This document shows, one piece after another, positions 1 through 23,837 of a DNA stretch of 39,560 nt. The position numbers and the translations under genes were made by a program. A model generated the notes under the pieces. That model did no database searches, had not been told where the DNA came from, and saw only the letters and a list, made by a program, of their open reading frames with translations. The DNA comes from Acidobacteriaceae bacterium (GTDB lineage Bacteria > Acidobacteriota > Terriglobia > Terriglobales > Acidobacteriaceae). The DNA is taken from contig PLPA01000283.1 of assembly GCA_003159355.1 (NCBI GenBank), positions 43,621 through 83,180 on the forward strand, in the 5' to 3' direction. The stretch's first letter is position 1. Every line of letters starts with the position of its first letter.

Positions 1-2735
1 TTGGACAAAATTATGAAGTCAACGGCATGCGTCCGGAGTCCAATACCTTCCTCGTGGATGGCATGCGTAACATCAACCGCATGGACGGAGGGTACGCATA
101 CCGGCCGCCAGCCGACTCGATGGCTGAATTCCGCATTCTCACCACGACCGCGCCGGCTGAGTTCGGTGGGACCAGCGGTGGCATTACCACCATTGTCACC
201 CGTTCCGGCACGAATCAGGTGCACGGAACGCTGTATGAGTTCCTGCGCAACGACGCGCTTAACGCCAACAACTACTTTGCGCCGCGGAAGGAAGAGCTCA
301 AGCAGAACCAGTACGGCGGCACCATCGGCGGCCCCATGGTGCATAACCACGCCTACTTCTTCGCGTACTACGAAGGTCTTCGCGAAAATCAGGACATCAC
401 GCATGGCGTGGTGGTGCCAACGGTGGCGGAGCGCAGTGGCGACTTCTCAGCCGATGCGCCCATTCTTTTGAATTCCACACGAACGCCCCTGGGCAACAAT
501 CTTTCCGGTCAGGTCAACGCGATCACCGCGAAATACTTCCAGTACTTTCCCATTCCCAACACGCTGGAAAATCCGCACCTGGCCCAAACCACAAACCTGA
601 GCCAGTTAGACAGTGACCAGGGCGGCGCCAAAGCCGACTGGTTGCTGCGGAACGTGGATGTTTTGAGCGCGCGCTACAGCTACTCGACGATGGGACTTCG
701 CAGCCCGTATTCGGAACTCGGCGCCGATGTTCCAGGGTTTCCCGTTGGCTACTACGCCAACACGCACCTTAGCGGATTGACTGAAACTCACACCTTTTCT
801 CCGCATACGGTGCTGACTGCAAATGTCAGCTTCTTCCGGAACCACATCATTCTGGATCAGCGCAAATCCGGCTTCAGCCCTCAGGCATTCGGCTTTGGAT
901 ATTCCTCCACATGGGCCTCGGCCACGGGCGCGCCGCTAATCATGACCCAAGGCTACTCCAATGTGGGCGACCCAGTTATCAACCCGCGCGATAGCACACA
1001 GAACGACTACGCTTACAGCGCCAACCTAGTACACACACAGGGCAAGCACGTCACCAGTTTCGGCTCTCAGTTCCGTCGGACGCAGCTCAACGGCTATCAG
1101 GCAAACTTTGCTTCGGGCACCTTTTCCTTTACGGTTCAGGGCTACACCAACAACTCGTTGGCTAACTTCCTGCTGGGTAAGCCGGATATATTCACCCAAG
1201 CCGGGGGCGACTTCACACGTGACCTGCGCGGCTGGGAGTTGGGCTCCTACGCACAGGATGAGTACCGCATCAGCAAGACGCTTACGCTGAACTACGGCGT
1301 ACGTTACGAGATCACGACGCCGTTCCGAGACATCCACAATCGCATGATGGAGTTTGCGCCGGGCCACCAATCCACCGTTTATCCTAACGCTCCAAACGGC
1401 CTTCTGTTTCCCGGCGACTCCGGTGTACCCGACACGATTGCGCCTGTCTTCAAAGGTGATTGGGCGCCCCGTGTCGGCTTCGCATGGGATCCGTTTCGGA
1501 ATAGCCGCACGGTGATCCGCTCAGCCTACGGCATCTTCTACGACGAACTGCTGAACGGCGTGGGAATGCCCTTCCGCGCCACCAGCAGCGCGCTCCCACA
1601 GACGGTCGTCCGGACTCTTACTGGATACACAAAGATCAACTACGCCAACCCGCTCGGTACCGTAAGCAGTCCATTTACGCCCGGCCAGTTTGCTCTGCCC
1701 GCTTCCACCTTTACCATCGATAGCAATCTGCGGCCTCCCTATGCGCAGGACTGGAACTTTACCATCGACCAAAGCCTTGGTAAGCAGAACCTGTCCGTCG
1801 GATACATTGGGTCCAAAGGAACTCGCTTGCCGCGCCTAGTCGAAGCTAATCCTGCGATCTATCAACCCGGTGCAACCTTCGCTAACTCCCCTCGGCGTCG
1901 GCTCTACTCCGGCTGTACGCTGACGACCGGCACCTGCACGCTGGGCACGGCCGGACTGGTGGAGGGAAATGCGAACTCAACCTTCCACTCGGCACAGGCT
2001 TCACTCACACGGCGCGGCACGCCGGATTTGAATTACACACTGGCCTACACCTTTTCCAAGAATCTGGATTACTCATCAAGCCTTCATATGTCCGGTCCCG
2101 CCCCCTGGATGGTCCTTGGAGAGCTTGACATTGCCCAGAATAACCAGGATCTGAAGGCTGAACACGGACGCTCGCTTTTCGATTCGCGCCATCGTTTTGC
2201 CGGGAGCGTGACCTACGCGATTCCATTTGCGCGCAGCTTCACCGGTCCGTCTCGAATTCTGCTGGATGGCTGGCAATTCAGTGCCTTGTTAGCCGTCAAT
2301 TCCAGCACACCCTTCACTGTTTATGACTCGGCCAATGTTTCGTTGCAGGCTCCGCATCCCGGAGTTTCCGGCATGTTCGGCGATCGGCCCAATGTTGTTG
2401 GAAACCCCAATAAGGGAGCGCCGCACAAGGTGTCGCAATGGGTGTCGCCTTCGGCATTTCAACGGCTCGATCCGGTTGCAGACGCCGGGCAGTTCGGCAA
2501 CGAGGGGCGAAACAGCGTCGATGGCCCTGCCTATGGAAGTCTGGACGCTTCACTCGACAAGAGCTTTGCGATAGGAGAACAGACGAGAGTGCAGTTTCGG
2601 GCGGAAGCCTTCAACGTGACAAACCGTGTCAACCTGATCCCACCCGTATTCGACATGAACTCGCCTGCCTTCGGGCAGATCACGGAGGCGCAGGCCCCGC
2701 GTGTCCTGCAATTCGCCTTGAAGTTTGTGCGGTGA
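1..2735 (+). CDS. TonB-dependent receptor, Oar-like (5'-truncated by window)
   Basis: The frame is already open at the left edge (QNYEVNG precedes the first Met at 27), so the signal peptide, carboxypeptidase-regulatory domain and most of the plug lie outside the window. About 910 residues are visible. They begin with the end of the plug (NTFLVDGMRN, then EFGGTSGG and TRSGTNQVHG, typical of acidobacterial Oar-like receptors) and continue into a 22-strand-type outer-membrane barrel rich in alternating aromatic residues. The protein ends in FALKFVR, consistent with a final barrel strand. Such receptors import large or scarce substrates (metal chelates, glycans, peptides) using TonB energy. The ligand cannot be read from the sequence. 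The peptide gene that follows by 26 bases makes a peptide or metallophore ligand worth considering, but that is inference. Confidence 0.9.
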   Translation, partial: GQNYEVNGMRPESNTFLVDGMRNINRMDGGYAYRPPADSMAEFRILTTTAPAEFGGTSGGITTIVTRSGTNQVHGTLYEFLRNDALNANNYFAPRKEELKQNQYGGTIGGPMVHNHAYFFAYYEGLRENQDITHGVVVPTVAERSGDFSADAPILLNSTRTPLGNNLSGQVNAITAKYFQYFPIPNTLENPHLAQTTNLSQLDSDQGGAKADWLLRNVDVLSARYSYSTMGLRSPYSELGADVPGFPVGYYANTHLSGLTETHTFSPHTVLTANVSFFRNHIILDQRKSGFSPQAFGFGYSSTWASATGAPLIMTQGYSNVGDPVINPRDSTQNDYAYSANLVHTQGKHVTSFGSQFRRTQLNGYQANFASGTFSFTVQGYTNNSLANFLLGKPDIFTQAGGDFTRDLRGWELGSYAQDEYRISKTLTLNYGVRYEITTPFRDIHNRMMEFAPGHQSTVYPNAPNGLLFPGDSGVPDTIAPVFKGDWAPRVGFAWDPFRNSRTVIRSAYGIFYDELLNGVGMPFRATSSALPQTVVRTLTGYTKINYANPLGTVSSPFTPGQFALPASTFTIDSNLRPPYAQDWNFTIDQSLGKQNLSVGYIGSKGTRLPRLVEANPAIYQPGATFANSPRRRLYSGCTLTTGTCTLGTAGLVEGNANSTFHSAQASLTRRGTPDLNYTLAYTFSKNLDYSSSLHMSGPAPWMVLGELDIAQNNQDLKAEHGRSLFDSRHRFAGSVTYAIPFARSFTGPSRILLDGWQFSALLAVNSSTPFTVYDSANVSLQAPHPGVSGMFGDRPNVVGNPNKGAPHKVSQWVSPSAFQRLDPVADAGQFGNEGRNSVDGPAYGSLDASLDKSFAIGEQTRVQFRAEAFNVTNRVNLIPPVFDMNSPAFGQITEAQAPRVLQFALKFVR

Positions 2736-2749
2736 ACCCGCCTCCGAAG

Positions 2750-2755
2750 AAAGGA
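2750..2755 (+). promoter_or_regulatory. Shine-Dalgarno AAAGGA of the small peptide gene
   Basis: AAAGGA lies 6 bases before the ATG at 2762, in the 26-base gap after the receptor stop codon. It is the main evidence that the short frame downstream is translated. Confidence 0.6.
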
Positions 2756-2761
2756 ACGACT

Positions 2762-2890
2762 ATGAAAAGCAATACTCGCAGCTATTCGAACGGCAGTACC
2801 GACGCCACCATCGCGCCAATGCAGGTGGCCACCAGTACCTATCACGCCACCAATCACAACCTGGTTTTTACGGCGCGCAATCTGTTCTAG
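2762..2890 (+). CDS. Small 42-residue peptide, unknown; candidate RiPP precursor or secreted peptide
   Basis: The short frame runs ATG to TAG, with a good Shine-Dalgarno six bases upstream, just after the TonB receptor. The product starts MKSNTRSYSNGSTDATIA and ends TARNLF. It is rich in Ser/Thr (12 of 42) and Asn (5). It has two His (28, 32) and two Tyr (8, 27), only one acidic residue (Asp14), and no Cys or Trp. There is no hydrophobic signal segment, so any export would need a leader-dependent or unknown route. The next gene is 69 bases downstream, in the same apparent operon as two haem proteins and two propellers. I do not recognise a family. The position between a TonB receptor and a MauG-like di-haem enzyme gene set suggests a precursor or ligand peptide, but a spurious frame remains possible. 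Confidence 0.5.
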   Translation: MKSNTRSYSNGSTDATIAPMQVATSTYHATNHNLVFTARNLF

Positions 2891-2959
2891 TACCGCAAAT
2901 GCCCGGTTTACAGTTTATCGGAAACATTGTGTGTAGTTGCTGCTCATGGGGAATGTTGG

Positions 2960-4345
2960 ATGAGAGTCATTGCAAGAGTGATGACGATTGCCGCTCCGTT
3001 TGCGCTGGTGCTGATTTGCGGTTTTGCACCCGAACCGGCACAAAGCCCAGCGGCGGATATTATCGTTACTGCCGCGCTAGTCTATGATCCGTTGGCGGCC
3101 TTGCGCGGAGAAGAACGCTTTCCCAAGGGCGCGCAATTGCTCGTGATTCACGCGGGCAAAGCGGGTTCCAACCCGGAGCCGCTGGTGACAGGCTTTGCGG
3201 CTACCGCGGACGCCAATGTTTCCTTCGACGCCAAGACCGTACTATTCGCTGGTAAAAAAACCGCGGGCGACCCATGGCAGATATGGGAACTGACGATTGC
3301 AGACCATTCGCTGCGGAAGATTGTCGCGGATGCAAACGGCGCCATTCGCCCGCTCTACCTGCCTGGCGGCCGCCTGGTCTATGCGCACCGCACTTACAAG
3401 GGCTATCGACTTGAAGCAGCGCAATTGGATGGCTCCGCAGTTCAGCCACTCAGTTTCTTGCAAGCCAGCACACTACCTGCGTCAGTGCTGAAGGATGGGC
3501 GCATTCTCTTTGAAGCCGGCTTCCCTTTTGGTTCCGGATCGACGCCGGAACTGTTCCTGGTTTACTCGGATGGAAGCGGAGTCGAATCCTACCGCTGCGA
3601 TCACGGCACGGCGCGCTGGGAAGGAACACAGTTGGCCTCTGGCGATGTGGTGTTCACGCACGGCGCAACATTGGCGAAGTTCACGTCGTCTTTGGCAGCG
3701 GAGGAGCGCATCGTAGCGCCGCGCGCCGAATATGCCGGCGCGATTGCCGAGACAGCCACTGGCGCATGGCTTGTGAGCGTGCGATCCGGCGCTGGAACGC
3801 ACTACACATTGAAGCTGTGGAAACCGGGCGCGGCGGCACTGCAAACATTACTGGCTAAAAGCGGCGAGGATATTGTCGAGCCAGTTCTTGTGGCAGCGCA
3901 TACAACGCCCAAGCGTCACCCCTCCGGGCTGCACGACTGGAGCTACGCCAATCTGCTTGCCCTCGATTCGCGCCTCTCGCGCGATGGCGATCTTCGCGTT
4001 GCACCTGCATCGGTGCGGCTGGAGACACAGGACGCTCAAGGCCGCACTGTCATCACTGGCACAGCTCCGGTTGAGGCGGATGGTTCCTTCTTTGCAAAAG
4101 TGCCCGCCGAACAGCCGATTCGCTTTGTGCTGCTTGATAAAAAGGGCGCAGTGCTGCGGCAGGAGCACGGATGGTTCTGGATTCGCCGCGGAGAACAGCG
4201 CTACTGCGTGGGCTGCCACACGGGGCCGGAACGCTCGCCGGTGAATCGCTTGCCGGCCGCGCTGCTGCGCACCACAACGCCCGCCGATCTTACAGGCGTG
4301 AAGGAGCCACGCGAGTCGCAACACGGAACGCCAGGAGGCAACTGA
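2960..4345 (+). CDS. Periplasmic beta-propeller mono-haem protein, hydrazine-synthase alpha (HzsA)-related
   Basis: About 461 residues from the ATG at 2960, which has GGGG eight bases upstream and opens a Sec-type signal peptide (MRVIARVMTIAAPFALVL). An in-frame ATG at 2927 is less likely. The body has propeller-like repeats (GRLVYAHRTY, GRILFEAGFP). The C-terminal part carries HDWSYANLLALDSRLSR, then GSFFAKVPAEQPIRFVLLD, and a single c-type haem motif CVGCH at about residues 416-420 within RYCVGCHTGPERSPVN. This arrangement matches the HzsA-related family seen in many environmental genomes, most of which are not anammox bacteria. Hydrazine synthesis is therefore not implied. The haem probably makes it an electron carrier or redox enzyme in the periplasm. 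Its stop codon is one base before the next start codon. Confidence 0.75.
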   Translation: MRVIARVMTIAAPFALVLICGFAPEPAQSPAADIIVTAALVYDPLAALRGEERFPKGAQLLVIHAGKAGSNPEPLVTGFAATADANVSFDAKTVLFAGKKTAGDPWQIWELTIADHSLRKIVADANGAIRPLYLPGGRLVYAHRTYKGYRLEAAQLDGSAVQPLSFLQASTLPASVLKDGRILFEAGFPFGSGSTPELFLVYSDGSGVESYRCDHGTARWEGTQLASGDVVFTHGATLAKFTSSLAAEERIVAPRAEYAGAIAETATGAWLVSVRSGAGTHYTLKLWKPGAAALQTLLAKSGEDIVEPVLVAAHTTPKRHPSGLHDWSYANLLALDSRLSRDGDLRVAPASVRLETQDAQGRTVITGTAPVEADGSFFAKVPAEQPIRFVLLDKKGAVLRQEHGWFWIRRGEQRYCVGCHTGPERSPVNRLPAALLRTTTPADLTGVKEPRESQHGTPGGN

Positions 4346-4346
4346 G

Positions 4347-6038
4347 ATGAATTTCCGCTTTCTTCTTCTATTTTCCGCCGTCTCCGTTTCTGCTGCGCAT
4401 CTCACTCTTGCTGCACAGCAGTCACCCGCACAGAATCCTCATGGCGCGCAAGCGCCGTCTGCGCCACCGCAGGCCGCGCCGGTGATTCGTTTTGAAGATG
4501 CGAGCGATAAGGCGGGCATTAACTTTACGCACAGTTACGGGTCGCGCCAGATGGCATCGCTGCTCGAAGATACTGGCGCAGGCTGCGTGTGGTTCGACTA
4601 CAACAACTCCGGTCTTGAGTCTCTCTATGTGTTGAACGGACGGCCGCTGGACGATTCGATGCATCCGTTTCCGCTGAAGGTCAAGCCGAATCCTCTGCCG
4701 CACAATCATCTTTATCGCAACAACGGCGACGGCACATTTACCGACGTGACAGAGAGTTCCGGGCTCAATCCCGAGATCTATGGAATGGCCGTGACGGCTG
4801 CCGACTATGACAACGACGGCTTTGTCGATCTGCTGGTGACCGGATACGGCAAAACGATTCTCTACCACAATGACGGCAACGGGCACTTTACCGATGTGAC
4901 CAAGAAGGCCGGCATCAATGTGGACGGTTGGGCCATCAGTTCGACGTGGCTGGATTACGACAAGGATGGCTGCGTCGATCTGTTTGTGGGCCGCTATGTG
5001 AAATTCGATCCAAAGTACCGCGCCTTCTATGCGCCGGACGGCTATCCGGGGCCGCTGGACTACGCTGGCGAGACAAACAAACTTTTTCACAACAACTGCG
5101 ATGGAACCTTCACCGATGTCACCGACAAGTCGGGCATCGGAGCCGATGTGGGCCGCACGATGGGCGTGACCGCGGCGGACTTCGACAACGACGGCTGGGA
5201 CGACATTTACGTTTCCAACGACCGCACGGAGAACTTCCTCTTCCGCAACAAGCATGATGGAACCTTTGAAGAGATTGGCAGCGATACGGGCACGGCTTAT
5301 GGACAAAATGGCGAGTCTACTTCGTCTATGGGACCGGTTTTTGCCGACCTTGAGGGGCGGGGATGGCTGGACCTGTGGGTCACAGATGGGCGCTACAACC
5401 GTTTGCTGCGCAACACGGGCAAGATGAGCTTTGAAGACTTGGGAGCAACGAATGGCGTCTCGCAGGCGAATGCGCAATATGCGAGTTGGGGCACGGGTAT
5501 TTACGACTTCGACAACGATGGGCTGCTCGACATTCTCATCTTCCATGGCGCGCTCATTCAGCAGATTCCGCAAGAGCATACGCTTTTTCGCGGAATAGGC
5601 GACGGTAAGTTCGTGGACGTTTCGCGCGAGGCAGGCCCTGTGCTGAGCGTGCGCACGACGGCGCGAGGCGCATGTTTCGCCGACTACGAAAACAATGGGA
5701 AAGTGGATGCTTTCGTGGTGAATCTGGGATCGAAGGGGACGCTGCTCCACAACGTTTCGGCGAATACAGGCCACTGGATTGCGATCAAGCTGAAGGGAAC
5801 AAAGAGCAACCGCGACGGCATTGGAGCAAAGGTGGAAGTCTTTGCGACAGGCAAGCGCCAAACGGCAGAACGCGTGGCTGGCTCGGGATATCTGTCGCAG
5901 AACGACGAGCGCCTGCACTTCGGTTTGGGCGCTGCGACGACTGTGGACAAACTCATCCTTCACTGGCCGAGCGGACGCGAGCAGACGCTCGAAAACCTGA
6001 CCGTGGACCGTGTGCTTACTGTGGAGGAACCTAAATGA
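4347..6038 (+). CDS. CRTAC1-family protein: FG-GAP/VCBS propeller with ASPIC/UnbV C-terminus
   Basis: 563 residues. AGGAGG sits eight bases before the start. An N-terminal signal peptide (MNFRFLLLFSAVSVSAAH) is followed by a Pro/Ala linker. Residues about 48-450 are repeats of the type DYDNDGFVDLLV plus NNGDGTFTDVT, the Asp-rich calcium-binding loops of FG-GAP/VCBS blades. The last about 70 residues (GHWIAIKLKGTKSNRDGIGA to LHWPSGREQTLENL) form the ASPIC/UnbV domain. Proteins of this family are secreted or periplasmic and thought to bind other proteins or ligands; no enzymatic reaction is established. It overlaps the next gene by four bases (ATGA), so translation is probably coupled to the propeller/di-haem protein. 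The linker resembles that of the propeller gene starting at 7974. Confidence 0.88.
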   Translation: MNFRFLLLFSAVSVSAAHLTLAAQQSPAQNPHGAQAPSAPPQAAPVIRFEDASDKAGINFTHSYGSRQMASLLEDTGAGCVWFDYNNSGLESLYVLNGRPLDDSMHPFPLKVKPNPLPHNHLYRNNGDGTFTDVTESSGLNPEIYGMAVTAADYDNDGFVDLLVTGYGKTILYHNDGNGHFTDVTKKAGINVDGWAISSTWLDYDKDGCVDLFVGRYVKFDPKYRAFYAPDGYPGPLDYAGETNKLFHNNCDGTFTDVTDKSGIGADVGRTMGVTAADFDNDGWDDIYVSNDRTENFLFRNKHDGTFEEIGSDTGTAYGQNGESTSSMGPVFADLEGRGWLDLWVTDGRYNRLLRNTGKMSFEDLGATNGVSQANAQYASWGTGIYDFDNDGLLDILIFHGALIQQIPQEHTLFRGIGDGKFVDVSREAGPVLSVRTTARGACFADYENNGKVDAFVVNLGSKGTLLHNVSANTGHWIAIKLKGTKSNRDGIGAKVEVFATGKRQTAERVAGSGYLSQNDERLHFGLGAATTVDKLILHWPSGREQTLENLTVDRVLTVEEPK

Positions 6039-7963
6039 ACCGGCGAGCGCAACATGGGTTTCACTTTGGAGTTTGCGCGGGATTTGCCGCCGCGAGCGTG
6101 GCGTTGCTTTCGGTCGAACTGTGGACCGGCGGGAATGTTCGCGCAGCCGCGCAGCCAGAGACGAGCGCGACAGAGGATTATTCTTCGCCGCTTGAGGTTT
6201 TGCTTTCGCCGGATGGCGCGCGGCTCTATGTGCTCTGCCAGCAAAGCAACGAGGTACGCGTGTTGAATGCGGCCAGCTTCGCGGTGATCAAAAACATTGC
6301 GATGGGCCGTGTGCCGCGTGGATTTTCGCTTTCTTTCAAGGGCGACAAGTTGTTTGTGACGAACTCCTGGGACGATACGCTCTCGGTGATCGATACAAAA
6401 ACACTTGCCGTGGTGGCCACATGGAGCGTGGGCGCAGAGCCGTCGAGCGTGGTTGAGGACCGTGCAGGCAAACGGCTGTTTGTGGCCAATCGGATCAGTG
6501 GCGACATCGCCGTCCTAGATGCTCAGACCGGCGTGGAAGAGAAGCGCCTGCTGGCTGGGCGCGGCGCGAGCTATCTGGCACTCTCACCCGACGGTAGCCG
6601 CATTTATGTGACTCATGTTTACCCGAAGATCGTCCCGCGTCAGACCGGGTTGGAAAATCGGATGGAGCCGGAGTCGGAGATCACGGTGATCGATGCGGAG
6701 CGCGCAGTTGTGATAGATCGCGTGCCGCTGCACGCGATTGCCGGCGTCTTTCATTTGGCGCTCTCCGCCGATGGACGGCTGGGCGTTGCCGCCGAATACC
6801 ATCCAAAAAATTTGATTCCGCTGGCGCACGTGGAACACGGCGGCACTTTCACCTATTCGCTCGAAGTGTTTGGCGCGGATGTGGGAAAGGCTGCTCCGAT
6901 TGAAGTGCCGCTGGATGAGTTGGAGCGCTATGCCTCGCAGCCTTTCGGCGTGGCCATTGCGCCGGACAAGTCGCGCGTTTACGTTACCTGCGGGGGTTCG
7001 GAGATTGTGACCGTGGTCGATGTGCCGCGCCTGCTTCGCTTCATTCACGCGCACACCGGTCTCTTCGCGCAAGATCTCTCTGCCAGCGCCAATTATGTTG
7101 TGACACGCATTCCCGTGGGACTGAATCCGCGCGGGCTGGCGCTTTCGCGTGACGGACGCAGGCTGTTTGTAGCAAACCGCCTGGATGACACCGTGAGCAT
7201 GATCGACACGCGCACTAATCGCGTTGCCTCCACTATCACGCTGGCTGGACCGAAGACGATCTCTCAACTGCGTCACGGCGAGCAGACATTTTATACTTCG
7301 CGCTATTCGTTTCAAGGCCAGATGGGCTGCGCCAGTTGCCACATCGATTCCACCTTCGACGGCATTCAATGGAACCTGGAACCGGATGGCTTTGGCCGCA
7401 ACACGGTGGACAACAAGATCCTTGAGGACATCAAGGACACGGAGCCGTATAAATGGACCGGAACCAACCCGAACATTCCAACCGAGTGTGGACCGAGGAC
7501 TGAAAAGTTCTTCTGGCGTTCAGAGAACTACGACAATCTCACACTTGCCGATTTAGCTGCCTACGTTCGCAGTCTGGCTCCGCGCCCCAATCGCTGGCGA
7601 CAGGCAAACGGCGAGCTTACGCCAGCGCAGGAGCGCGGCAAAGCGATCTTCGAGCGCGCCGTGGACAAGTTCAAGAAGCCGATTCCCGAATACAATCGCT
7701 GCTCCTATTGCCACAGTGGCCCCAAAGGCACGAGTCAAATAATCTTTAACGTGGGGACGCGCAAACCCAACGACAATACAGGACTGCTGAAGGCTCCCAT
7801 GCTAACCAATATCGCGCTCACCGCCCCTTACCTGCACGATGGGTCGGCGCGTTCGCTGGAAGAGATATGGACGATCTACAACCCGGACGACAAGCACGGT
7901 CGGACCAACGATTTGACCAAGGATGAACTTAACGATCTGATCGAGTACCTCAAGTCTCGATAA
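6035..7963 (+). CDS. YVTN beta-propeller fused to a MauG/cytochrome-c-peroxidase-like di-haem domain
   Basis: 642 residues; GGAGG seven bases before the ATG, which overlaps the previous stop. A signal segment (residues about 10-30) precedes a seven-blade-like YVTN propeller (residues about 50-400, repeats such as GDKLFVTNSWDDTLSVID and GRRLFVANRLDDTVSMID). The C-terminal 220 residues hold two c-type haem sites, CASCH (432-436) and CSYCH (556-560), and the segment APYLHDGSARSLEEIW (about 598-612) typical of bacterial di-haem peroxidases and MauG. MauG-family enzymes oxidise peroxide or modify amino-acid side chains of partner proteins; MbnH, a relative, oxidises Trp in a copper-binding partner. 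Which activity applies here is unknown. The propeller may position the substrate. Neighbouring exported redox proteins support a periplasmic pathway. Confidence 0.85.
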   Translation: MNRRAQHGFHFGVCAGFAAASVALLSVELWTGGNVRAAAQPETSATEDYSSPLEVLLSPDGARLYVLCQQSNEVRVLNAASFAVIKNIAMGRVPRGFSLSFKGDKLFVTNSWDDTLSVIDTKTLAVVATWSVGAEPSSVVEDRAGKRLFVANRISGDIAVLDAQTGVEEKRLLAGRGASYLALSPDGSRIYVTHVYPKIVPRQTGLENRMEPESEITVIDAERAVVIDRVPLHAIAGVFHLALSADGRLGVAAEYHPKNLIPLAHVEHGGTFTYSLEVFGADVGKAAPIEVPLDELERYASQPFGVAIAPDKSRVYVTCGGSEIVTVVDVPRLLRFIHAHTGLFAQDLSASANYVVTRIPVGLNPRGLALSRDGRRLFVANRLDDTVSMIDTRTNRVASTITLAGPKTISQLRHGEQTFYTSRYSFQGQMGCASCHIDSTFDGIQWNLEPDGFGRNTVDNKILEDIKDTEPYKWTGTNPNIPTECGPRTEKFFWRSENYDNLTLADLAAYVRSLAPRPNRWRQANGELTPAQERGKAIFERAVDKFKKPIPEYNRCSYCHSGPKGTSQIIFNVGTRKPNDNTGLLKAPMLTNIALTAPYLHDGSARSLEEIWTIYNPDDKHGRTNDLTKDELNDLIEYLKSR

Positions 7964-7973
7964 GGGAGATGTG

Positions 7974-9113
7974 ATGAAAAAGCTCTGTATGATTGCAATG
8001 TTGCTAATTGCTGCCATAAATGCATATTCCGCGTCACCAGCGTCCGTGTCTAAGCCGGCAAATGGAGCGCATAAATCTCATGCCGCGCAAGCGGCGTCTG
8101 CCGCACCGCAAGTGCTGCCGCGCTTCCGTTTTGAAAACTTTACCACCGCCAACGGCCTTCCCAACAATCACGTCTTCGCGGTACTTGTCGATGGAGATCG
8201 CATCTGGGCGGGAACGGAGAATGGATTGGCGGTCTACGAGAACCATGTCTGGAAGGTCTACACGACCGCGGATGGGTTGGCTCATCGCGCCGTCATCTCG
8301 CTGGCTCTGGACAAGAACACCGGCGATGTTTGGGCTGGAACCATGGGCGGGCTAAGCCGGATTTCAGGCGGACACATCGACAGCTTCACGCAGTTGAACT
8401 CAGGGCTGAGCAACAACGTCGTCTACAACATTTCAATCGAAGGCGAGAATGTATGGATTGCCACAGCCGCCGGCGGATGCCGGCTCAACCTGCACACCAA
8501 TCAGTGGTCGCTCTACAACGAGCGCAACACGCCCATGTTCGAGATATGGAATTATGCAGTTTCCGCGACGCCTACCAAGGTCTTTTACGGCGTTTGGGGC
8601 AGTGGCATTCTTGAATACGATCAGAAGACCGCGAAGTGGACCAGGTATGACGATCCGGACGGCGAAACCGAAACGGTGGTGATGAAGGATCAGGGGCTGA
8701 TCCACGAGATCGTCACCTCGGTCAGTTATATGGAGAAGGAGAATGTTTTGTGGGCAGCTACGTATTTTGGCGATAGCCATTATGATGGCCGTTACTGGCA
8801 CAACTTTCTCACCAAAGATAGCGGTCTTCCATCGAATTTTACCAATTATGTGAAAGGCGTGGACGGCAAGCGCGCTTGGTTCGGAACCGACAAAGGACTT
8901 GCTTATTATGACGGCGAAAATTGGTTCGTCTATCGCCCTTCACTCACCGATGGCAAGCCGGAGATGACGGTGCGCAATGCAAAGGGCATCGTAACGCCCG
9001 TCGCAGTGACCACCGCTCCGGCGCACAACTATATCCTTGGCATCGATTTTCAGGGCAACGACATTTGGGTTGCAACCGCTGACGGACTGAGCCACGGAAT
9101 TCGTCAGCCGTGA
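7974..9113 (+). CDS. Exported two-component-regulator-type beta-propeller, stand-alone
   Basis: 379 residues from the ATG at 7974, with GGGAG five bases upstream. A GTG at 7971 is in frame but too close to that site. After a signal peptide (KKLCMIAMLLIAAINAYSA) and an Ala/His linker come repeated propeller blades: FTTANGLPNNHVFAV, DRIWAGTENGLAVY, GDVWAGTMGGLSRI, ENVWIATAAGG. These are the reg-prop repeats usually found in the sensor part of hybrid histidine kinases. Here no kinase, transmembrane or DNA-binding domain follows, so the protein is a free periplasmic propeller, probably a ligand or protein binder. It lies 10 bases after the di-haem propeller gene and likely shares its transcript. 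Confidence 0.8.
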   Translation: MKKLCMIAMLLIAAINAYSASPASVSKPANGAHKSHAAQAASAAPQVLPRFRFENFTTANGLPNNHVFAVLVDGDRIWAGTENGLAVYENHVWKVYTTADGLAHRAVISLALDKNTGDVWAGTMGGLSRISGGHIDSFTQLNSGLSNNVVYNISIEGENVWIATAAGGCRLNLHTNQWSLYNERNTPMFEIWNYAVSATPTKVFYGVWGSGILEYDQKTAKWTRYDDPDGETETVVMKDQGLIHEIVTSVSYMEKENVLWAATYFGDSHYDGRYWHNFLTKDSGLPSNFTNYVKGVDGKRAWFGTDKGLAYYDGENWFVYRPSLTDGKPEMTVRNAKGIVTPVAVTTAPAHNYILGIDFQGNDIWVATADGLSHGIRQP

Positions 9114-9210
9114 GAAACCGGATCGCCATGACGGCACAAACTCAGATGCGAAATGTCACTGTGATCTTCTGTACGGATAAACAAGCTGGAACCAGCAAGG
9201 AGTTGTTGTG

Positions 9211-10677
9211 ATGCGCAAGAGATGGTTATTGGTTATCTTCGGCATCTTGGTTACTGGTGTAGCGGTCCGCTGCCTGGGCCAGGATGCAGCTAAGAATATG
9301 GACACGAGCACGGGTAAGAAAGTATGCGAGTGTGGCGCGCATCCGCCGGGACCGCCAAGAGACCGCACCGTAACCCCGTATGCTGGTACGCCGGACGACT
9401 TGAAGCCATTCGGCAAGTTTACGCCGAGTTATGATGTCAACTATATTCGTCCAAACATCTACATGGGCGCGGCGCGGAAGATTCCCGATCCCGCGGATAT
9501 TACGGAGGTGCGCATCGGATTTATCGGTCCGATCGAGCATCACCCCGACCAGGTTTTTGGGCTGCGGATGCTGCATGGCGCGCAGATGGCGATCGATGAG
9601 GCCAATGCCCGCGGCGGTTACGGGGGCAAGCCCTTCAAGCTGATGGCGCATAACGACTACGATAACTGGCAGGCCAAGACCGTTTATGGTCCGGACCGGC
9701 CCACAGACTCAGATATATGGGGATCGTCTTCGAATCAAGCTGTCAATATGGTTTACGACGACGAGGATTGGGCGATCTTTGGCTCGATCAGCTCCGAGAC
9801 CACGCACATCGTACTGCGCGTGGCGTTGCGTGCCGAGATTCCCGTGGTGAACTCGGAAAATACCGATCCCACCGTTCCAGAGACTACGATTCCGTGGTAC
9901 TTCGGCGCTTTGCAGGATGACCGGCAGCAGTCTTACACGTTGGCTCGCCACATTTTTACCGAGCTGGGGCTGAAACGCGTAGCGCTGTTCAGGGTAAACA
10001 ACCGCTATGGCCGCTTCGGAGTAGGCAAGTTCCGCGATGCGGCGCGCCGTCTGGGCCATCCGCTGGTGATTGAGCAGAAGTATCTGCCGGGCGACACGGA
10101 CTATTCGCAGCAGTTGAAGGTGATTCGCGATGCGCGGGCCGATGCGGTTGCTATCTGGGCCGATGAGGAACAGACGGCGCTGTTCCTCAAACAGTTACGG
10201 GCAGCGGGAATGAAACAGCGCGTCTTTGGCGCATATCGCACACTGGGTCCGGCGTTGCTGGCTGAGGCGGGAGATGCGGCCGAGGGCTTCGAAGCGGTCT
10301 ACCCCTACGATCCAACGCGCAACGACCCACGCTGGATCGACTTCAACAAGCGATACGAAGACCAATTCCATGAGAAGCCGGATCATTACGGCGCGTTGGC
10401 CTTCGACGCAATGAATGCTTTGCTCGATTCAATCTGCATGGCTGGACTCAATCGCGCGCGGATTCACGATGCTCTTGCCAACATTGAAGAGTACGACGGC
10501 GTAACTGGGCACATGACCTTCGACCCCAACGGGAAGAACGTGGCGCCGTTGTATTTGGGCACGGTACATGATGGCACAATCACATACAGGGTTGCCACGA
10601 TGGAAGCACGCTCGGTGCGGCCAGTGTCTTCTACCGCGCCGCAAATAATGCCCACTGGCGAGCCGCGCAAACAGTGA
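9211..10677 (+). CDS. ABC-type branched-chain amino-acid-like periplasmic binding protein (orphan)
   Basis: About 488 residues from the ATG at 9211 (AAGGAG eight bases upstream; a GTG at 9208 is too near). Residues 3-22 form a signal peptide. An unusual N-terminal section with CECGAHPPGPPRD leads into a type-I periplasmic binding fold: VRIGFIGPIEHHPDQVFG, GAQMAIDEANARGGYGGKPF, IFGSISSETTH, KRVALFRVNNRYGRFGVGKF and DAVAIWADEEQTALFLKQL. This is the LivK/Leu-Ile-Val-binding family. No ABC permease or ATPase gene is nearby, so it may sense or present a ligand rather than feed a transporter. Comparable orphan binding proteins and beta-propellers accompany quinoprotein dehydrogenase loci, but no dehydrogenase is seen here. 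It closes the compact exported-protein run with a 97-base gap before it. Confidence 0.82.
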   Translation: MRKRWLLVIFGILVTGVAVRCLGQDAAKNMDTSTGKKVCECGAHPPGPPRDRTVTPYAGTPDDLKPFGKFTPSYDVNYIRPNIYMGAARKIPDPADITEVRIGFIGPIEHHPDQVFGLRMLHGAQMAIDEANARGGYGGKPFKLMAHNDYDNWQAKTVYGPDRPTDSDIWGSSSNQAVNMVYDDEDWAIFGSISSETTHIVLRVALRAEIPVVNSENTDPTVPETTIPWYFGALQDDRQQSYTLARHIFTELGLKRVALFRVNNRYGRFGVGKFRDAARRLGHPLVIEQKYLPGDTDYSQQLKVIRDARADAVAIWADEEQTALFLKQLRAAGMKQRVFGAYRTLGPALLAEAGDAAEGFEAVYPYDPTRNDPRWIDFNKRYEDQFHEKPDHYGALAFDAMNALLDSICMAGLNRARIHDALANIEEYDGVTGHMTFDPNGKNVAPLYLGTVHDGTITYRVATMEARSVRPVSSTAPQIMPTGEPRKQ

Positions 10678-10805
10678 CTCTTACTCTCCGCAACAGATGT
10701 CAGCCGAAGCTGCACGACAAATATGGCTCATTCGAGCGAATCTACGTTGTCCAGTCGGCTCTGCGGGGGAGAATCGTCAAAAAGAAGAAAGACGGGGTTT
10801 CCTCA

Positions 10806-11117
10806 ATGGATGATGCTCTTCCCGATGCCCGGATTGCATTCCGCGCCTACTTGATCCGTCTTCATGGACCGGAGAGCGGCCCAACAATAAGAGTGCTTTT
10901 AGTCGAGGCCTCAAAAGCGCGATCAATTTATGAGGGATTCGGATCGTGGCCGCAATGCGAGCGTTGGATCGGACAGCTTACAGGTTGGATTACTCCGCGA
11001 GATGTGTTGGCAGATCTTCACAAACGTCTCGAACAAAAGCAATTGGCGACCATTAATGTGGTGCGAACTTCAGTGCAAGACATCGAATCTGCCGGACTAA
11101 GTCGTGTTGATAGCTAA
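10806..11117 (+). CDS. Hypothetical protein, 103 residues
   Basis: The plausible start is the ATG at 10806 (MDDALPDARIAFRAYLIRLH). An upstream GTG at 10674 overlaps the previous stop but would add 44 residues of low-complexity, Lys-rich sequence. The product has a compact, soluble look (FRAYLIRLHGPESG, SKARSIYEGFGSWPQCERWI) and no signal peptide, membrane segment or motif I recognise. It converges with the 11135-13810 gene, leaving 17 bases between stop codons. Function unknown. Confidence 0.5.
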   Translation: MDDALPDARIAFRAYLIRLHGPESGPTIRVLLVEASKARSIYEGFGSWPQCERWIGQLTGWITPRDVLADLHKRLEQKQLATINVVRTSVQDIESAGLSRVDS

Positions 11118-11134: not shown

Positions 11135-13810
11135 CTATTGTTTTGTCGCTGTTGTGGAAGGGGCGCCGAGGTGAAAGCTATGGCGGTCGAGTTTACTGAC
11201 CGCGGTTGCGAACTCACGAATTTCGATGTATTGATTCTTGTCCACGTCAATAAAATGCTGGCGGGTGTTGGTCGCAGGCCACCACACGTCGATCGCGGCA
11301 ATGCGCGCATTGTGCCCTAGCCCGATATGCTGTTCCATCGGATTAGAGCCGAAGGAACTGGTTTCTCCGACCGTACGATAGATTGATCGTGGTGCCTGAC
11401 CATCATCTGTCACTGTGACCTTGACCTGCGCGCCGACTCCGGAGCGGTTGCTTTTTACGCCAACCAGATGCACATTGATCCAGTCGTTGTTGTTGCCGGG
11501 GTTTTTAAACACACGCAAAGTGTGCGCATCGCCTGGCACAGCTCCGCCGGTCTCCGCCACGATGGCCACATTTCCGCTTCTGTCGAGATCGGCAAATGTG
11601 ATAGCGTGCCCTTTGTGCACGTCTCCTGTTCCCGAAGAAGCTGTGATGTCCACAAACTTTTTTCCGTCTTTGTTGAGTAGCAGCGTGTGCGGTATCAACG
11701 CAGTATAGTTCGGGTTCCCGTTTCCAAGGTAGATGGAGAGGAAGCCGTCGTTTCGGATGTCGCCAAAGCCGGAACCCATCGGCATGAATACCTTGTCGAG
11801 GCCCACTTTTTCGGTAACATCTTCAAAGGTTCCATCGTGCTTGTTGCGGTAGAGCTTGAGCGTTTCGGCGTTGTGCGGCAGACCTAAATAAGTCTTTATT
11901 GACTCCGCGATAGAGATCGGATAGCTTGCTACAAACAGGTCCGGCCATCCGTCGTTGTCGTAGTCGAAGAAGAACGTCGAGAAGCTGACTATTGGAGCCT
12001 GGACGCCCGCCTGCCGGGCCACATCTGTAAATGTCAGATTGCCGTTGTTGTGGTATAGATTATTCGCACCGTACAGGTTTGACACATAGAAATCTACGTA
12101 GCCGTCCTGATCGTAGTCCGCGGCCGTTACTCCCTTGGAAAACGCTGTCTGATCGATTCCCGACGAATGCGAGATGTCTTCAAATGTGCCGTCGCCTTTG
12201 TTGTGAAACAGTTGGCTGGGGGAGTTTTCGTTGGCAATGAAGAGGTCAAGATAGCCATCATTGTCAATGTCAGCCCATACCGCGGAATTTGTTTGAGCTA
12301 CGTTATCTCCCAGTCCGCTTTCCTCCGTCACGTCCGTGAATGTTCCATCGCAGTTATTGCGCAAAAGAGACCTTCTTTGAGGGTATTCCCATCCCCCGCG
12401 CGGAATGAAAAGGTCCATGCATCCGTCATTGTTGTAGTCCACCTGCATGATGTTGAGGGCGCCAAGCTGGTCAGCGAGGCCCGCTTGGACCGTTCGATCC
12501 GTAAAAGTGCCATCCCCGTTGTTGTGGAAATACTTGATCGGATCGCAGACTTCCATGCTGGAAACAACGATGTCAAGCAATCCGTTGTTCTCGAAGTCGT
12601 CGATGGTAAGCCCGCCGGCTTCGCGCATGACATTCAAGCCTGCTGCAGGCGCAACATCGACAAAGCGTCCGATGTCCTCCTTCGACTGGAAATCGCTCAG
12701 CGGGATGAGATATTCCTTGGGCACACCAGTCGGATACTCGCCCAGAGTCGAATACGCATAATTGAGCAGCCATTTTACTTCGATGTCGTTTGGGTATTGC
12801 ATGAGAAAATGAGTAAAGTATTGAATGGCAAGCCTGGATTCGTCCTTTTTCTCATAACTTTCCTTGGGATTTACGGGAGGAAATAAATCCATATCGCCGG
12901 AGTTGCGATAGACGCCGTTCTCCATCTCAGCCCAATGCAGATACGCCGCCCCGATTGTCTCTTCAAGTTTGGGTAACAAGGGAAACGTTGCTGCCTGTAC
13001 TGGGCCGCCCATGCCGCCACTGCCGCCGCCACCTGCACGATTGGACAACTGGGCCGATGTTGCTGTCTGGGCCATCTGGTAGGCAATCTTGAACTCCTTA
13101 ATAGATTCCTCCATCTTTCCCTTAGAAGCATATAGCTGGCCGGCAAACAAATAGAGTCCCAAAATATCTTCTGTACTGTAGGTTGCAGGAATATCCGACC
13201 TTGGCGTATTTGTAAAATCTACGATCTCCTTCATGGCAGCATCGTAAGACTGAGTTCGCAGGTTGCAGCTTTGACGGAGATCGCGAGCCCATCCATCGGG
13301 TTTTGGATAACGGCTAAAAAGACTATCAACTTCGCCAAGACCGCCAATTGATGCACCAAAACGAATGTCACCGTTTGCAACCAAGGCCTTTATGCGATCT
13401 GAGTTTAGATCTTGAGTCGCAGGCGCGACAGAGAAGATCTTCATGATTGCGAATCCAGACGGCACTGGAACAATGCCGCTAATTTGCCCATTAGAATGCC
13501 CGGCCAAGGCATCACGTAATTCGGAACGCAGTTGTGAAGGACTCAATTTGCCCATGTATCCGCCGTCGATTGCTGTTGGATCAATCGACTTCTCCTTGGC
13601 CAACACGCTGAAGTCCCATCCGGCATTGAGCTTACGCAACACGCCGGCAGCCTCTATTTCAGTAGATGTGACGATAATGCCCAATTCCAATGGCTGTGAA
13701 GCAGCATCTTGCTGGGCCAGGGCTAGGCTGGAAAAACATGGCAAAACCACGGCCGCTGAGAAAAACAGCTTTCCTATAAACAGATGACTGGCGATTGTTT
13801 GGCGTTGCAT
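11135..13810 (-). CDS. Parvulin-like PPIase / TPR / CRTAC1 (FG-GAP, ASPIC/UnbV) multidomain secreted protein
   Basis: 891 residues. A signal peptide (residues about 1-33) is followed at about 60-130 by a parvulin-type rotamase region (GWDFSVLAKEKSIDP, GGYMGKLSPSQLRSELRDAL, ISGIVPVPSGFAIMKI). About 210-390 contains TPR-like helices and a Gly-rich stretch (GGGGSGGMGG). From about 395 to 790 run FG-GAP/VCBS blades with Asp loops (DYNNDGCMDLFI, DIDNDGYLDLFI, DYDQDGYVDFYV), ending in an ASPIC/UnbV domain (NDWINVHLVGVKSNRSGVGA). The combination suggests a periplasmic or outer-surface folding or assembly factor for its own propeller partners; the catalytic competence of the rotamase part is unproved. 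The start is supported by GGGGAG just upstream, at a slightly short spacing. It is transcribed divergently from the cus operon and converges with region 1. Confidence 0.85.
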   Translation of the reverse strand: MQRQTIASHLFIGKLFFSAAVVLPCFSSLALAQQDAASQPLELGIIVTSTEIEAAGVLRKLNAGWDFSVLAKEKSIDPTAIDGGYMGKLSPSQLRSELRDALAGHSNGQISGIVPVPSGFAIMKIFSVAPATQDLNSDRIKALVANGDIRFGASIGGLGEVDSLFSRYPKPDGWARDLRQSCNLRTQSYDAAMKEIVDFTNTPRSDIPATYSTEDILGLYLFAGQLYASKGKMEESIKEFKIAYQMAQTATSAQLSNRAGGGGSGGMGGPVQAATFPLLPKLEETIGAAYLHWAEMENGVYRNSGDMDLFPPVNPKESYEKKDESRLAIQYFTHFLMQYPNDIEVKWLLNYAYSTLGEYPTGVPKEYLIPLSDFQSKEDIGRFVDVAPAAGLNVMREAGGLTIDDFENNGLLDIVVSSMEVCDPIKYFHNNGDGTFTDRTVQAGLADQLGALNIMQVDYNNDGCMDLFIPRGGWEYPQRRSLLRNNCDGTFTDVTEESGLGDNVAQTNSAVWADIDNDGYLDLFIANENSPSQLFHNKGDGTFEDISHSSGIDQTAFSKGVTAADYDQDGYVDFYVSNLYGANNLYHNNGNLTFTDVARQAGVQAPIVSFSTFFFDYDNDGWPDLFVASYPISIAESIKTYLGLPHNAETLKLYRNKHDGTFEDVTEKVGLDKVFMPMGSGFGDIRNDGFLSIYLGNGNPNYTALIPHTLLLNKDGKKFVDITASSGTGDVHKGHAITFADLDRSGNVAIVAETGGAVPGDAHTLRVFKNPGNNNDWINVHLVGVKSNRSGVGAQVKVTVTDDGQAPRSIYRTVGETSSFGSNPMEQHIGLGHNARIAAIDVWWPATNTRQHFIDVDKNQYIEIREFATAVSKLDRHSFHLGAPSTTATKQ

Positions 13811-14095
13811 CGGCTCCCCAATGGATGACTTGGATCGTTTGTAGATTTGTGAACGAAAGAAGAATCATAGTGGGGGTGACGGCGCGCGTCTTGGACCAAA
13901 GGATGGAGTGCCCGATTCGTCCGTCGGGAGGAGAAGGGAAGCCATACTTAATTATGATGCGGATACTCCACCAGATGGATGAAGGCGCGCATCATCTCAT
14001 TGATTGATAGAGTGTTCATCCATATTGCCGATGGAGAATGCGGCCAGAAAGAGCACAATCATCTGTTGGCGGGAATTGCCGCGGGAGATTTCCCT
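13811..14095. promoter_or_regulatory. Divergent intergenic region before cusC
   Basis: 285 bases between divergent genes must hold two promoters. I see no confident -35/-10 pair. A weak candidate for the plus strand is TTGATT at 14000 with CATATT 15 bases on. No clear CueR-type or CusR-type palindrome was found, so how metal regulates the operon is not visible. Confidence 0.3.
14083..14088 (+). promoter_or_regulatory. Shine-Dalgarno GGGAGA that sets the GTG start of cusC
   Basis: GGGAGA ends seven bases before the GTG at 14096. Starting there gives a normal signal peptide (MKLKQMMCAAIFIGCRLLSA). The upstream ATG at 13979 would put 39 charged residues before it. Confidence 0.55.
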
Positions 14096-15358
14096 GTGAA
14101 GCTCAAGCAAATGATGTGCGCTGCTATATTCATCGGCTGCCGGCTGCTGTCCGCACAGGGAGGCCACGAAGCGCCGTTGCCGACTTCACTCGCAACTCTA
14201 TTGGCTGAGGCGGGAGCAAAAAATAGTCAGGTTGCCTCCGCCGAGGATGCTTGGAGGGCCTCAGCACACGTTGAAAAGCTGGCCACTGCGCTTCCCGATC
14301 CTGTTATCACACTTCAGTCGTTCAGCATAGGCAGCCCTAAGCCGTTTGCCGGATTCAGCAACAGCGAGTTTGCGTACGTGAGTTTGGGAGCTTCACAAGA
14401 ACTTCCCTACCCTGGAAAACTCAGGCTCCGGGGCGAGGTTGCTCATCGCGAGATGGAGACGCAGAAGGCGGGCGTTGCAGTGACACGCTCCTTGGTGGCA
14501 GAGCAGGTCAAGCTGCTGTACCTGCAAATCGCATATTCTACCTCTGCAATCGCATACCTGGATCGTATCGATTCACTGTTGCAGTCCGTTACAAAAGACG
14601 CGCTCTCCCAGTACGCTCTGGGCAAAGGAAGCCAGTCAGCGGTCATCAAGGCGCAGATGGAGCGTACGCAGATTCTTCGTCAGGACACCATGCACAACCA
14701 GGAACTGTGGCAGGCACAGGCCCGGCTCAAGCAACTGTTGCATCGCACACAGGATTCTCCCGACATCTATCCCGATCCGCTGGCAGCGACGACCTTCGCG
14801 GCTGACCCGCAGGAGTTGCGAAACCAGTTGCGCTCCGGCAATCCCACGCTGCTGATGGATGCTTCTGCAGTGGACAAGCAGAAGGCGCAGTTGGCGTCCG
14901 CAAAGCGCAGCGTGAAGCCTGACTTTAATGTTGGCTATGCCTTCCAAATCACTGGCGATGATCATCGAAACCGATATATGTTTTCGGCGGAGATTCGTCT
15001 TCCCAATCGGCGTCGTGTAGAAGCTGAAATTGCCCAGGCAATGGAACTGGAGACTCGCGCAAGACACGAGATGGACTCGGATGTTCAGCAAAAGCTGGCT
15101 GATTTGCAGGAGCAATACATTGCCGTGAAGAGCACAGCGGAACTCCTCAATGAATACAAGGAAGGACTAATACCGCAAGCGGAGGCCGTGTTTCATTCCG
15201 AGCAGTCCGCCTATCAATCCAACAAGCAGGAACTCGGCCCGGTGCTTTCCGCATTGTTGGACATACTCACACTGGAGAGCGATTACCAGCAGGCGCTTCT
15301 CGATCATGAGGCCGCGCTGGTACGCATAGAGACATTGACAGGGAGAACAATACGATGA
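14096..15358 (+). CDS. cusC: Outer-membrane efflux channel, TolC/CusC family
   Basis: About 420 residues from a GTG start chosen by signal peptide and ribosome binding site. The sequence has TolC-family features: LPDPVITLQSFSIG, SQELPYPGKLRLRGEVAHREM, long amphipathic coiled-coil helices (RSLVAEQVKLLYLQIAYSTS; AQMERTQILRQDTMHNQELW) and a C-terminal YQQALLDHEAALVRIETL helix. It would form the outer-membrane duct of a tripartite efflux pump. The stop codon overlaps the next start (ATGA), so it is translationally coupled to the adaptor. Metal specificity is inferred from the adaptor and pump genes that follow. Confidence 0.85.
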   Translation: MKLKQMMCAAIFIGCRLLSAQGGHEAPLPTSLATLLAEAGAKNSQVASAEDAWRASAHVEKLATALPDPVITLQSFSIGSPKPFAGFSNSEFAYVSLGASQELPYPGKLRLRGEVAHREMETQKAGVAVTRSLVAEQVKLLYLQIAYSTSAIAYLDRIDSLLQSVTKDALSQYALGKGSQSAVIKAQMERTQILRQDTMHNQELWQAQARLKQLLHRTQDSPDIYPDPLAATTFAADPQELRNQLRSGNPTLLMDASAVDKQKAQLASAKRSVKPDFNVGYAFQITGDDHRNRYMFSAEIRLPNRRRVEAEIAQAMELETRARHEMDSDVQQKLADLQEQYIAVKSTAELLNEYKEGLIPQAEAVFHSEQSAYQSNKQELGPVLSALLDILTLESDYQQALLDHEAALVRIETLTGRTIR

Positions 15359-16926: not shown

Positions 16927-16927
16927 G

Positions 16928-19900: not shown

Positions 19901-20083
19901 GTTCCCATCCTCTGGGCGTCTGGTATCGGATCAGATGTCATGAAACCGATTGCCGCTCCGATTGTTGGCGGCATGATCACCTCTGCTATTCATGTCCTCA
20001 TTCTGGTGCCCGTCTTCTTTGTCATGATTAAAAAGCATGAACTGCGAGTTGGCAAGCTGCACGCGATAAGAGAGGATAATTAA
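16928..20083 (+). CDS. cusA: CusA-type RND copper/silver efflux pump (HME4)
   Basis: 1051 residues from the ATG at 16928, two bases after the adaptor stop; an upstream in-frame ATG at 16883 would lie inside cusB. RND features include the first helix (RIIEICARNRFLVFAIVSML), the TM4 motif GGLALAIGVLVDAAIVMVEN and LLEAQEGRMFRPLVWTKTLA. Comparison with the E. coli CusA methionine relay (M573, M623, M672) finds Met at 571 (SALYMPTS), 621 (APLDMFDTT) and 670 (CRLDMELTG), all kept at the same spacing. That strongly supports Cu(I)/Ag(I) export by proton antiport across the inner membrane. It is the last gene of cusCBA. The TM4 sequence lacks the DFG...D pattern of Co/Zn/Cd pumps, unlike the pump gene at 27542-30700. 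Confidence 0.93.
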   Translation: MIARIIEICARNRFLVFAIVSMLTLAGAWSLMHISLDALPDISDVQVIVHTSWEGQPPDIIEDQVTYPIVTSLLAAPHVKAVRAQTMLGDSYVFVIFEDGTDPYWARSRVVEYLQQISGRLPQDVHPAIGPDATGAGWVFEYAIVDKSGTHSLADLRSLQDWHLRYDLETVPGVSEVASIGGFVRQYQVRLDPNKMLAYGIPLSTVIDRVKASTNEVGGRVLDLSGAQYLIRGLGYLRSTNDLENVAVGSKNGAPVLLRDLGSVGLGPDIREGVAEWNGEGETVGGIVVMRQGMNALKVIDGVKRKFHGIEASLPSGVEIVSGYDRSGLIKDSIATLQRDLLEEAVIVSLVILIFLFHYRSALIVIIALPIAVLVSFIPMYFLGITSNIMSLGGLALAIGVLVDAAIVMVENGYRHLSERQEAGSLPVSHSERRQILIGAAKQVGPALFFSLLIIVVSFLPVFLLEAQEGRMFRPLVWTKTLAVGSSSILAITLVPVLMVLLIRGRLRPERENPVSQFTQALYLPVLRFCLRHRKLTIVLNLLFLIAMVPIAFKLGSQFMPPLFEGSALYMPTSLPGISIEQAKTLMQKQDALLRAFPEVESVFGSVGRSDSATDNAPLDMFDTTIMLKPREQWRRGMTYERLIQEMDASVQFPGISNTWTSPVECRLDMELTGIKTPLGIKVQGPNIDGIERLAGQIQSVLATMPQQRSSFAERISQGFYVNVDVDREEAARYGLSVADVQTAVSSGIGGRNVTENIEGRERYPINVRYEQDFRDSVDRMRSVLIGTPSGSQIPLGQVARVSLSNGPAMIRDEDGQLTGYIYINLKDTNYGAFVDAANRLLRDQVALPANYSFTWSGEYQFEQRAKQRLKLIVPVVFALIFLLLYMVFQSVVEVVVLIFPTLYAMTGGLLMQWLLGYNFSVAVWVGYIALFGIAVETGVVMVVYLHEAVERRLSSGEIHSGSDIELAVIEGAVQRLRPKLMTVCAVLASLVPILWASGIGSDVMKPIAAPIVGGMITSAIHVLILVPVFFVMIKKHELRVGKLHAIREDN

Positions 20084-23728: not shown

Positions 23729-23734
23729 GTTACT

Positions 23735-23783
23735 CGCCTGTCTGCGGCCTGAGAGATTATACTTCTCTGGCCACAGACAGGTG
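23735..23783 (+). terminator. Long stem-loop after the TonB receptor gene
   Basis: Bases 23735-23749 pair with 23769-23783 over 15 positions (two not Watson-Crick but wobble-compatible). An inner stem AGAGA (23752-23756) pairs with TCTCT (23764-23768) around a 7-base loop. It begins seven bases past the receptor stop codon and 55 bases before the next start. There is no T-run after it, so it may be a 3' end stabiliser or a structured leader for the polyferredoxin gene rather than an intrinsic terminator. Confidence 0.5.
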
Positions 23784-23829: not shown

Positions 23830-23837
23830 TCCGTGCC

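Follow-up and report, generated by a model that had tools for sequence, protein, structure and literature searches.

What is the task of the exported haem and propeller proteins encoded at the left end of a 39,560-nucleotide stretch of a soil Acidobacteriaceae genome (assembly GCA_003159355.1, contig PLPA01000283.1, positions 43,621 to 83,180; hereafter the window)? Six proteins of the exported type lie there, all on the plus strand, in the open reading frames (ORFs) where a preliminary description, made from the letters alone, had placed them. Hydrazine synthase (HZS) is the signature enzyme of anammox bacteria. On sequence grounds, the core of the window locus is a complete HZS-like pair, alpha and betagamma, arranged around a CRTAC1 gene. 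The best overall explanation, to which we give an even chance, is a periplasmic haem complex homologous to HZS that processes a chorismate-derived aromatic compound and does not make hydrazine.

The alpha subunit (P0002, 2960-4345, plus strand; PF18582, 2e-16) consists of a signal peptide, a six-bladed-type propeller, the HZS_alpha middle domain and one CxxCH haem motif (C427-H431). P0002 alone matches HZS alpha weakly; a profile of 18 alpha relatives matched the anammox subunit 5c2v_A at 6.5e-59 across the propeller and the middle domain, and this match stops at residue 562 of 782. The protein ends about 40 residues past its only CxxCH and lacks the C-terminal alphaII haem domain. The AlphaFold model of P0002 (pLDDT 82) found its best structural match in 5c2v_D, with a Z of 31.5 over 417 residues, compared with a Z of about 25 for TolB propellers. 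The betagamma fusion (P0004, 6035-7963, plus strand; NCBIfam hydrazine_BC, 3.4e-54) joins a seven-bladed propeller to a MauG-type di-haem domain (C432-H436, C556-H560; W474, C485, H601) and matches 5c2v_B over its full length as well as 5c2v_C; when a profile was built from 12 betagamma proteins, the matches to these two subunits reached 4.2e-68 and 3.5e-36, respectively. All three subunits of the anammox HzsABC (PDB 5C2V) are homologous over nearly their full length, alpha minus its last domain, whereas in the window the catalytic ligands are changed, the alphaII domain is absent, beta and gamma are fused and the gene order is reversed. The scores lie below the NCBIfam cut-offs (hydrazine_alpha 49.8 versus 800; hydrazine_BC 184 versus 1250). 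The alpha and betagamma proteins presumably form a complex.

Between them lies the gene of a CRTAC1-family FG-GAP propeller protein with an ASPIC/UnbV domain (4347-6038, plus strand; PF13517, PF07593), and betagamma is followed by a free, exported propeller of the two-component-regulator type, Reg_prop (7974-9113, plus strand; PF07494), and by an orphan Peripla_BP_6 substrate-binding protein with no permease nearby (9211-10677, plus strand; PF13458, 9e-47), whose PDB relatives are for the most part listed as branched-chain amino-acid binding proteins. From alpha through CRTAC1 and betagamma to Reg_prop the genes follow one another closely, at +1, -4 and about +10 bases, and have good ribosome-binding sites. 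By inspection, all six exported proteins carry hydrophobic N-terminal signals, that of the TonB-type protein described below lying in its part upstream of the window. The preliminary description had recognized the propeller/di-haem architecture of P0004 and missed its identity as a full-length HzsB plus HzsC homologue; it had also counted three propellers where there are four, because the FG-GAP repeats of CRTAC1 and the HzsA-like protein's N-terminal half are propellers as well.

The residues of the haem sites were compared across the sequences collected here, 64 of them readable at betagamma and 59 at the alpha haem site, with the roles of the HZS residues taken from PMC12758564 and PMC12607021. 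Both gamma haem motifs are kept. The site of gamma-His144 is occupied by Trp in 64/64 sequences (Trp474 in the window copy), that of gamma-Cys165, the third haem thioether, by Cys in 57/64 (C485), and that of gamma-Asp168 by Thr, Leu, Ala or others (Thr489). No equivalent of Tyr591, the ligand of haem alphaI, was seen, since a Tyr within eight residues after the CxxCH occurred in 0/59 alpha haem sites. A His at the position of alpha-Cys303 was considered as another possible zinc ligand and rejected, since it is largely restricted to the Acidobacteriaceae type and is not general among the distant homologues. Because Tyr591 and the alphaII haem are missing and Trp replaces gamma-His144, hydrazine synthesis by these homologues is unlikely.

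The preliminary description knew no named kind for this set; it is the HZS-homologue type reported in December 2025 (Hagglund et al. 2025, PMC12758564), the only directly relevant paper that literature searches brought up on HZS homologues in connection with gene clusters, DAHP synthase, chorismate or CRTAC1. That study sorted co-localised non-anammox HZS homologues into four clades. In clades I and II, CRTAC1 separates alpha from betagamma; clades II and III have lost the alphaII haem, and clade III has binding proteins downstream. The study found a gap at Tyr591 and, at gamma-His144, a Trp; it judged the homologues unable to make hydrazine and proposed neither a function nor a substrate. The window pair likewise has alpha upstream of a fused betagamma with CRTAC1 between them. 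By its gene order, the lack of an alphaII haem and of any extra betagamma haem, and the Trp at gamma-144, it fits clade II best, which is an assignment by listed features rather than by tree placement. The text of the paper, figures excluded, mentions no DAHP synthase, Rid/chorismatase or dehalogenase. What is new here is the genomic context of the core, not the core type itself.

To see this context, we surveyed the neighbourhoods of 55 named loci found with betagamma, counting a gene only where the flank was sufficient. Alpha was present in 43/45 loci, CRTAC1 in 44/45, and Reg_prop and the binding protein in 39/40 each, so that the idea of a conserved unit, which the preliminary description had proposed to check in other genomes, held for the core set in 39-44 of 40-45 loci. 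Beyond the core, a Rid protein was found in 37/40, a DAHP synthase in 35/40 and an amidase in 28/38. The canonical operon, seen in nearly all relatives checked, reads DAHP synthase, alpha, CRTAC1, betagamma, Reg_prop, Rid/chorismatase-like protein and binding protein. As the first survey had been seeded with betagamma, it was repeated from alpha in other genomes: each of the 19 alpha loci shown had DAHP synthase, and the 17 complete loci each had the full canonical set of seven genes. By these counts, the set does not owe its co-occurrence to chance. The two surveys are not fully independent, as some genomes may belong to the same species. The window's own genome (3.6 Mb) holds three DAHP-synthase-type and four Rid-type matches, from which a chance adjacency within 20 kb of about 2% is expected.

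The distribution of alpha is patchy, with matches in 20/396 sampled Acidobacteriota genomes (E ≤ 1e-10) and in 61/300 genomes of the window's family (E ≤ 1e-60). No match was found in 72,556 plasmids, which leaves plasmid carriage unsupported. Among the loci examined outside the family, Rid and/or DAHP synthase adjoin the core in L043, L045, L046, L053, L054, L057, L105, L108 and L110, the last from a metagenome-assembled genome (MAG) of the FCB group. A cultured carrier of the operon is Occallatibacter savannae (locus L088). The betagamma proteins themselves vary in haem content: those of L046, L047 and L050 have four extra haem motifs, with a C-terminal extension seen in L046 and L047, and the distant forms of L044, L045 and L110 have ten haem motifs in all. 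No usual partner gene lies within 10 kb of a betagamma ORF of 776 residues with four haem motifs (L061:10001-11776), the MAG of which also has a canonical copy (L059).

DAHP synthase opens the shikimate pathway. Judged by scores above the curated cut-offs, the enzyme of the clusters is genuine; its match to the longer model is confined to the catalytic part of that model. The Rid proteins of the clusters carry the motifs PAS[TIV]GI (45/46 sequences) and CRx[DE]LLxEI[ED]. The PARxx[VI] motif with the catalytic Arg (Arg105 type), which imine deaminases of the RidA kind need (PMC4433059), was found in 0/46 of them, and an imine-deaminase role was rejected for this reason. In CRx[DE]LLxEI[ED], the Glu is the counterpart of Glu334 of Hyg5, which is catalytic, and the Cys that of its CH-Hyg5-type Cys (PMC7170507). 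A longer member, Rid368 (L009:9327-10433), is encoded beside a second HZS-like pair on the same contig, outside the window. It matches chorismatase models in sequence at 1.2e-12, and its structural model matches Hyg5 (5a3k) with a Z of 23.4 over 272 residues, FkbO (4bps) with a Z of 22.6 and single-domain Rid with a Z of 15.7. Full-length Rid368 is accordingly modelled with the two-domain chorismatase fold; its E351 corresponds to Glu334 of Hyg5 and is invariant in nine aligned proteins. It shares with FkbO/Hyg5-type chorismatases the fold, the catalytic Glu and the CH-Hyg5-type Cys, whereas its score is under the family cut-off and most clusters hold the single-domain form only.

The canonical operon with DAHP synthase and Rid, together with the fold of Rid368, leads us to propose a chorismate-derived aromatic substrate. 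In its canonical form the system would be co-made with a stand-alone DAHP synthase and the Rid/chorismatase-like protein, which would yield a chorismate-derived, hydroxybenzoate-like aromatic inside the cell. The aromatic acid would then be exported, be bound by the orphan binding protein and be oxidised at the betagamma di-haem site. Since the bridging Trp is conserved, this chemistry could be driven by peroxide or oxygen, as in MauG and bacterial peroxidases. A second reaction of the product may follow at the alpha haem, much as HZS uses two sites, and CRTAC1 and Reg_prop could serve as scaffold or sensing propellers.

Several observations weigh against this proposal. DAHP synthase and Rid are cytoplasmic and the haem proteins are exported, and the exporter was not identified. 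The substrate, the activity and the ligand of the binding protein are predicted ones. For Rid368, the chorismatase score is 47.8 against a TIGR04444 cut-off of 325, and the model has a pLDDT of 64.6 with its first 100 residues at low confidence. The usual cluster Rid (183 residues) is a single domain that prefers RutC over chorismatase models by score, and the activity of this common form is uncertain. The distant loci L044, L049 and L052 show neither DAHP synthase nor Rid, and the window copy has neither alongside, as is also the case for its relatives L058, L098 and L100.

Two other functions are live rivals, protein modification and peroxide defence. In the former, betagamma would be a MauG/MbnH-type enzyme that oxidises Trp or Tyr in an exported partner (CRTAC1, Reg_prop or alpha) and so matures it. 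Two c-type haems with a Trp between them are a MbnH/MauG feature that is present in P0004, the Trp at the MauG/peroxidase position is invariant, and betagamma is translationally coupled to CRTAC1. MauG, MbnH and the bacterial di-haem cytochrome c peroxidases have the di-haem domain with bridging Trp in common with P0004, so the relationship to MauG/MbnH suggested in the preliminary description stands at the level of this domain, but the nearest full-length relatives are HzsB and HzsC. Here the domain is joined in one chain to an HzsB propeller and has alpha as its partner, and it matches the models weakly, far under the family cut-offs (MbnH, TIGR04039, 58.9 versus 362.85; MauG, TIGR03791, 24.4 versus 443.85). 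As protein modification would also leave the linkage to DAHP synthase and Rid unexplained, we consider it unlikely. The other rival is simple defence against periplasmic peroxide, in which a cytochrome c peroxidase-like enzyme would do the chemistry and the propellers would be structural. The PF03150 CCP_MauG match and the bridging Trp speak for it, but it would not account for why alpha, the binding protein, DAHP synthase and Rid are so strictly kept, and this reading appears improbable to us.

A true or modified hydrazine synthase would convert nitric oxide to hydroxylamine at the gamma haem and join it to an amine at the alpha haem, forming N-N bonds. The homology of all three subunits and the retained gamma-Cys165 are consistent with this, but the loss of Tyr591, of gamma-His144, of gamma-Asp168 and of the alphaII domain, the lack of any nitrogen-oxide gene among the conserved neighbours and the same verdict in PMC12758564 for its homologues make it very improbable. 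The processing of copper or other metals, or of a peptide, linked to TonB uptake, as first suggested, has an equally slight probability: a CusABC-type pump lies 3.3 kb downstream, the TonB gene lies upstream and L100 has distant OEP-like (24%) and CusB-like (34%) genes, but no CusA homologue is near the sister copies L058, L098 and L100, the MbnH score also argues against a copper/methanobactin link, a similar TonB gene occurs in only 4/27 loci with full flanks, and the supposed peptide is a probable remnant.

This last ORF (2762-2890, plus strand, 42 residues), which had been taken as a small peptide and possible substrate, has no counterpart in the sister loci. Its last 25 residues resemble the C-termini of barrel-like frames of about 280-320 residues in relatives, with 54-60% identity over the final 21-28 residues of those frames, so it is probably what is left of the C-terminus of an outer-membrane protein gene rather than a conserved peptide gene. 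The TonB-dependent-receptor-type outer-membrane barrel upstream of it (C-terminal part at 3-2735, plus strand; PF25183, E 1.9e-201) had been counted in the core and is better regarded as accessory. Its gene starts upstream of the window (full ORF in L010, about 1065 residues), and a few consecutive unread bases (XX in the translation) fall inside it at the left edge of the window, near L010 7620. The conserved neighbours of the core point to aromatic metabolism rather than to copper or peptide processing.

The window copy itself departs from the canonical form. In a quick betagamma tree it grouped with L058, L098 and L100 (SH-aLRT 99), and these three sister copies each have one extra betagamma haem motif. 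A canonical copy is also present in two of the three other sister-clade genomes (PLGM01, L062; PLFY01, L060). Further along the window are a second TonB-type receptor (20426-23728, plus strand), a NapG/NapH-like membrane polyferredoxin of uncertain ORF start (23685-25361, plus strand) and a reductive dehalogenase exported by the twin-arginine (TAT) route (25612-26985, minus strand), which has a TAT signal and two 4Fe-4S motifs and scores 276.8 bits against a TIGR02486 cut-off of 160.35. The L058 copy adjoins the same three genes (dehalogenase 90%, polyferredoxin 82% and TonB receptor 89% identical), and a dehalogenase (70%) also accompanies L100; L098 lies on too short a contig for this comparison. 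Few genomes have the dehalogenase, namely 2/300 in the family (E ≤ 1e-40) and 2/299 in the class (E ≤ 1e-80), and that of G660 (L155) lies away from the HZS-like genes. As the three loci share ancestry, the linkage of the dehalogenase to this clade is suggestive only. With the dehalogenase, polyferredoxin and TonB receptors nearby and no DAHP synthase or Rid, the window copy, a duplicated variant, may act on imported, possibly halogenated, aromatics.

Two further copies were seen in the same genome. The second pair (G000:C125, about 25.5-30.4 kb; L009:5546-10433), about 20 kb upstream, has an alpha of 503 residues, a betagamma of 723 residues with three haem motifs and no CRTAC1 between them, followed by Rid368; it is flanked by two TlpA/AhpC-type thioredoxins and then by FadL, YeeE-type and CysK-type genes. 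The third, of the canonical type and cut by the contig end (C99; L011:12790-17084), comprises a betagamma fragment, Reg_prop, Rid183 and a long binding protein, and adjoins a Reg_prop sensor kinase and a NarL regulator. An orphan NarL-type regulator just upstream of the window (L010:6237-7019), divergent from the TonB gene, is identical to that NarL at 181/213 residues, and NarL genes also flank L042, L058, L066, L072 and L098.

Of the remaining genes in the window, a small hypothetical protein (10674-11117, plus strand) is common only to the sister loci L058 and L098 (64-70% identity), and a PpiC, TPR and FG-GAP/ASPIC protein (11135-13810, minus strand) is common to L058 (62%) and L100 (51% identity). 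Heavy-metal efflux is represented by two operons of the CusA/CzcA type, one on each strand (13979-20083 and 27542-33774), and the CusB-like protein of the first bears an extra YtkA domain. An ORF of 532 residues (34543-36141, minus strand) matches Thy1 (ThyX) in two stretches and is unusually long for ThyX.

The non-anammox homologues bear on the origin of HZS, the central enzyme of anammox, and the 2025 study assigned them no function. The tie to DAHP synthase and Rid, seen at nearly every Acidobacteriaceae locus examined and at several distant ones, gives a testable substrate class, the chorismate-derived aromatic acids. Going further, and more tentatively, HZS may descend from, or share ancestry with, a widespread group of periplasmic haem enzymes of soil bacteria, with two sites and with phenolic acids to oxidise that derive from chorismate by way of a dedicated DAHP synthase, as shikimate entry, and a chorismatase-like Rid, the branch in the window having been recruited beside organohalide reduction; this we hold to be possible and rather less probable than the aromatic substrate itself. 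If the aromatic link is true, it would suggest a role of such enzymes before, or besides, the making of hydrazine, and a possible link of this haem chemistry to organohalide use in peat.

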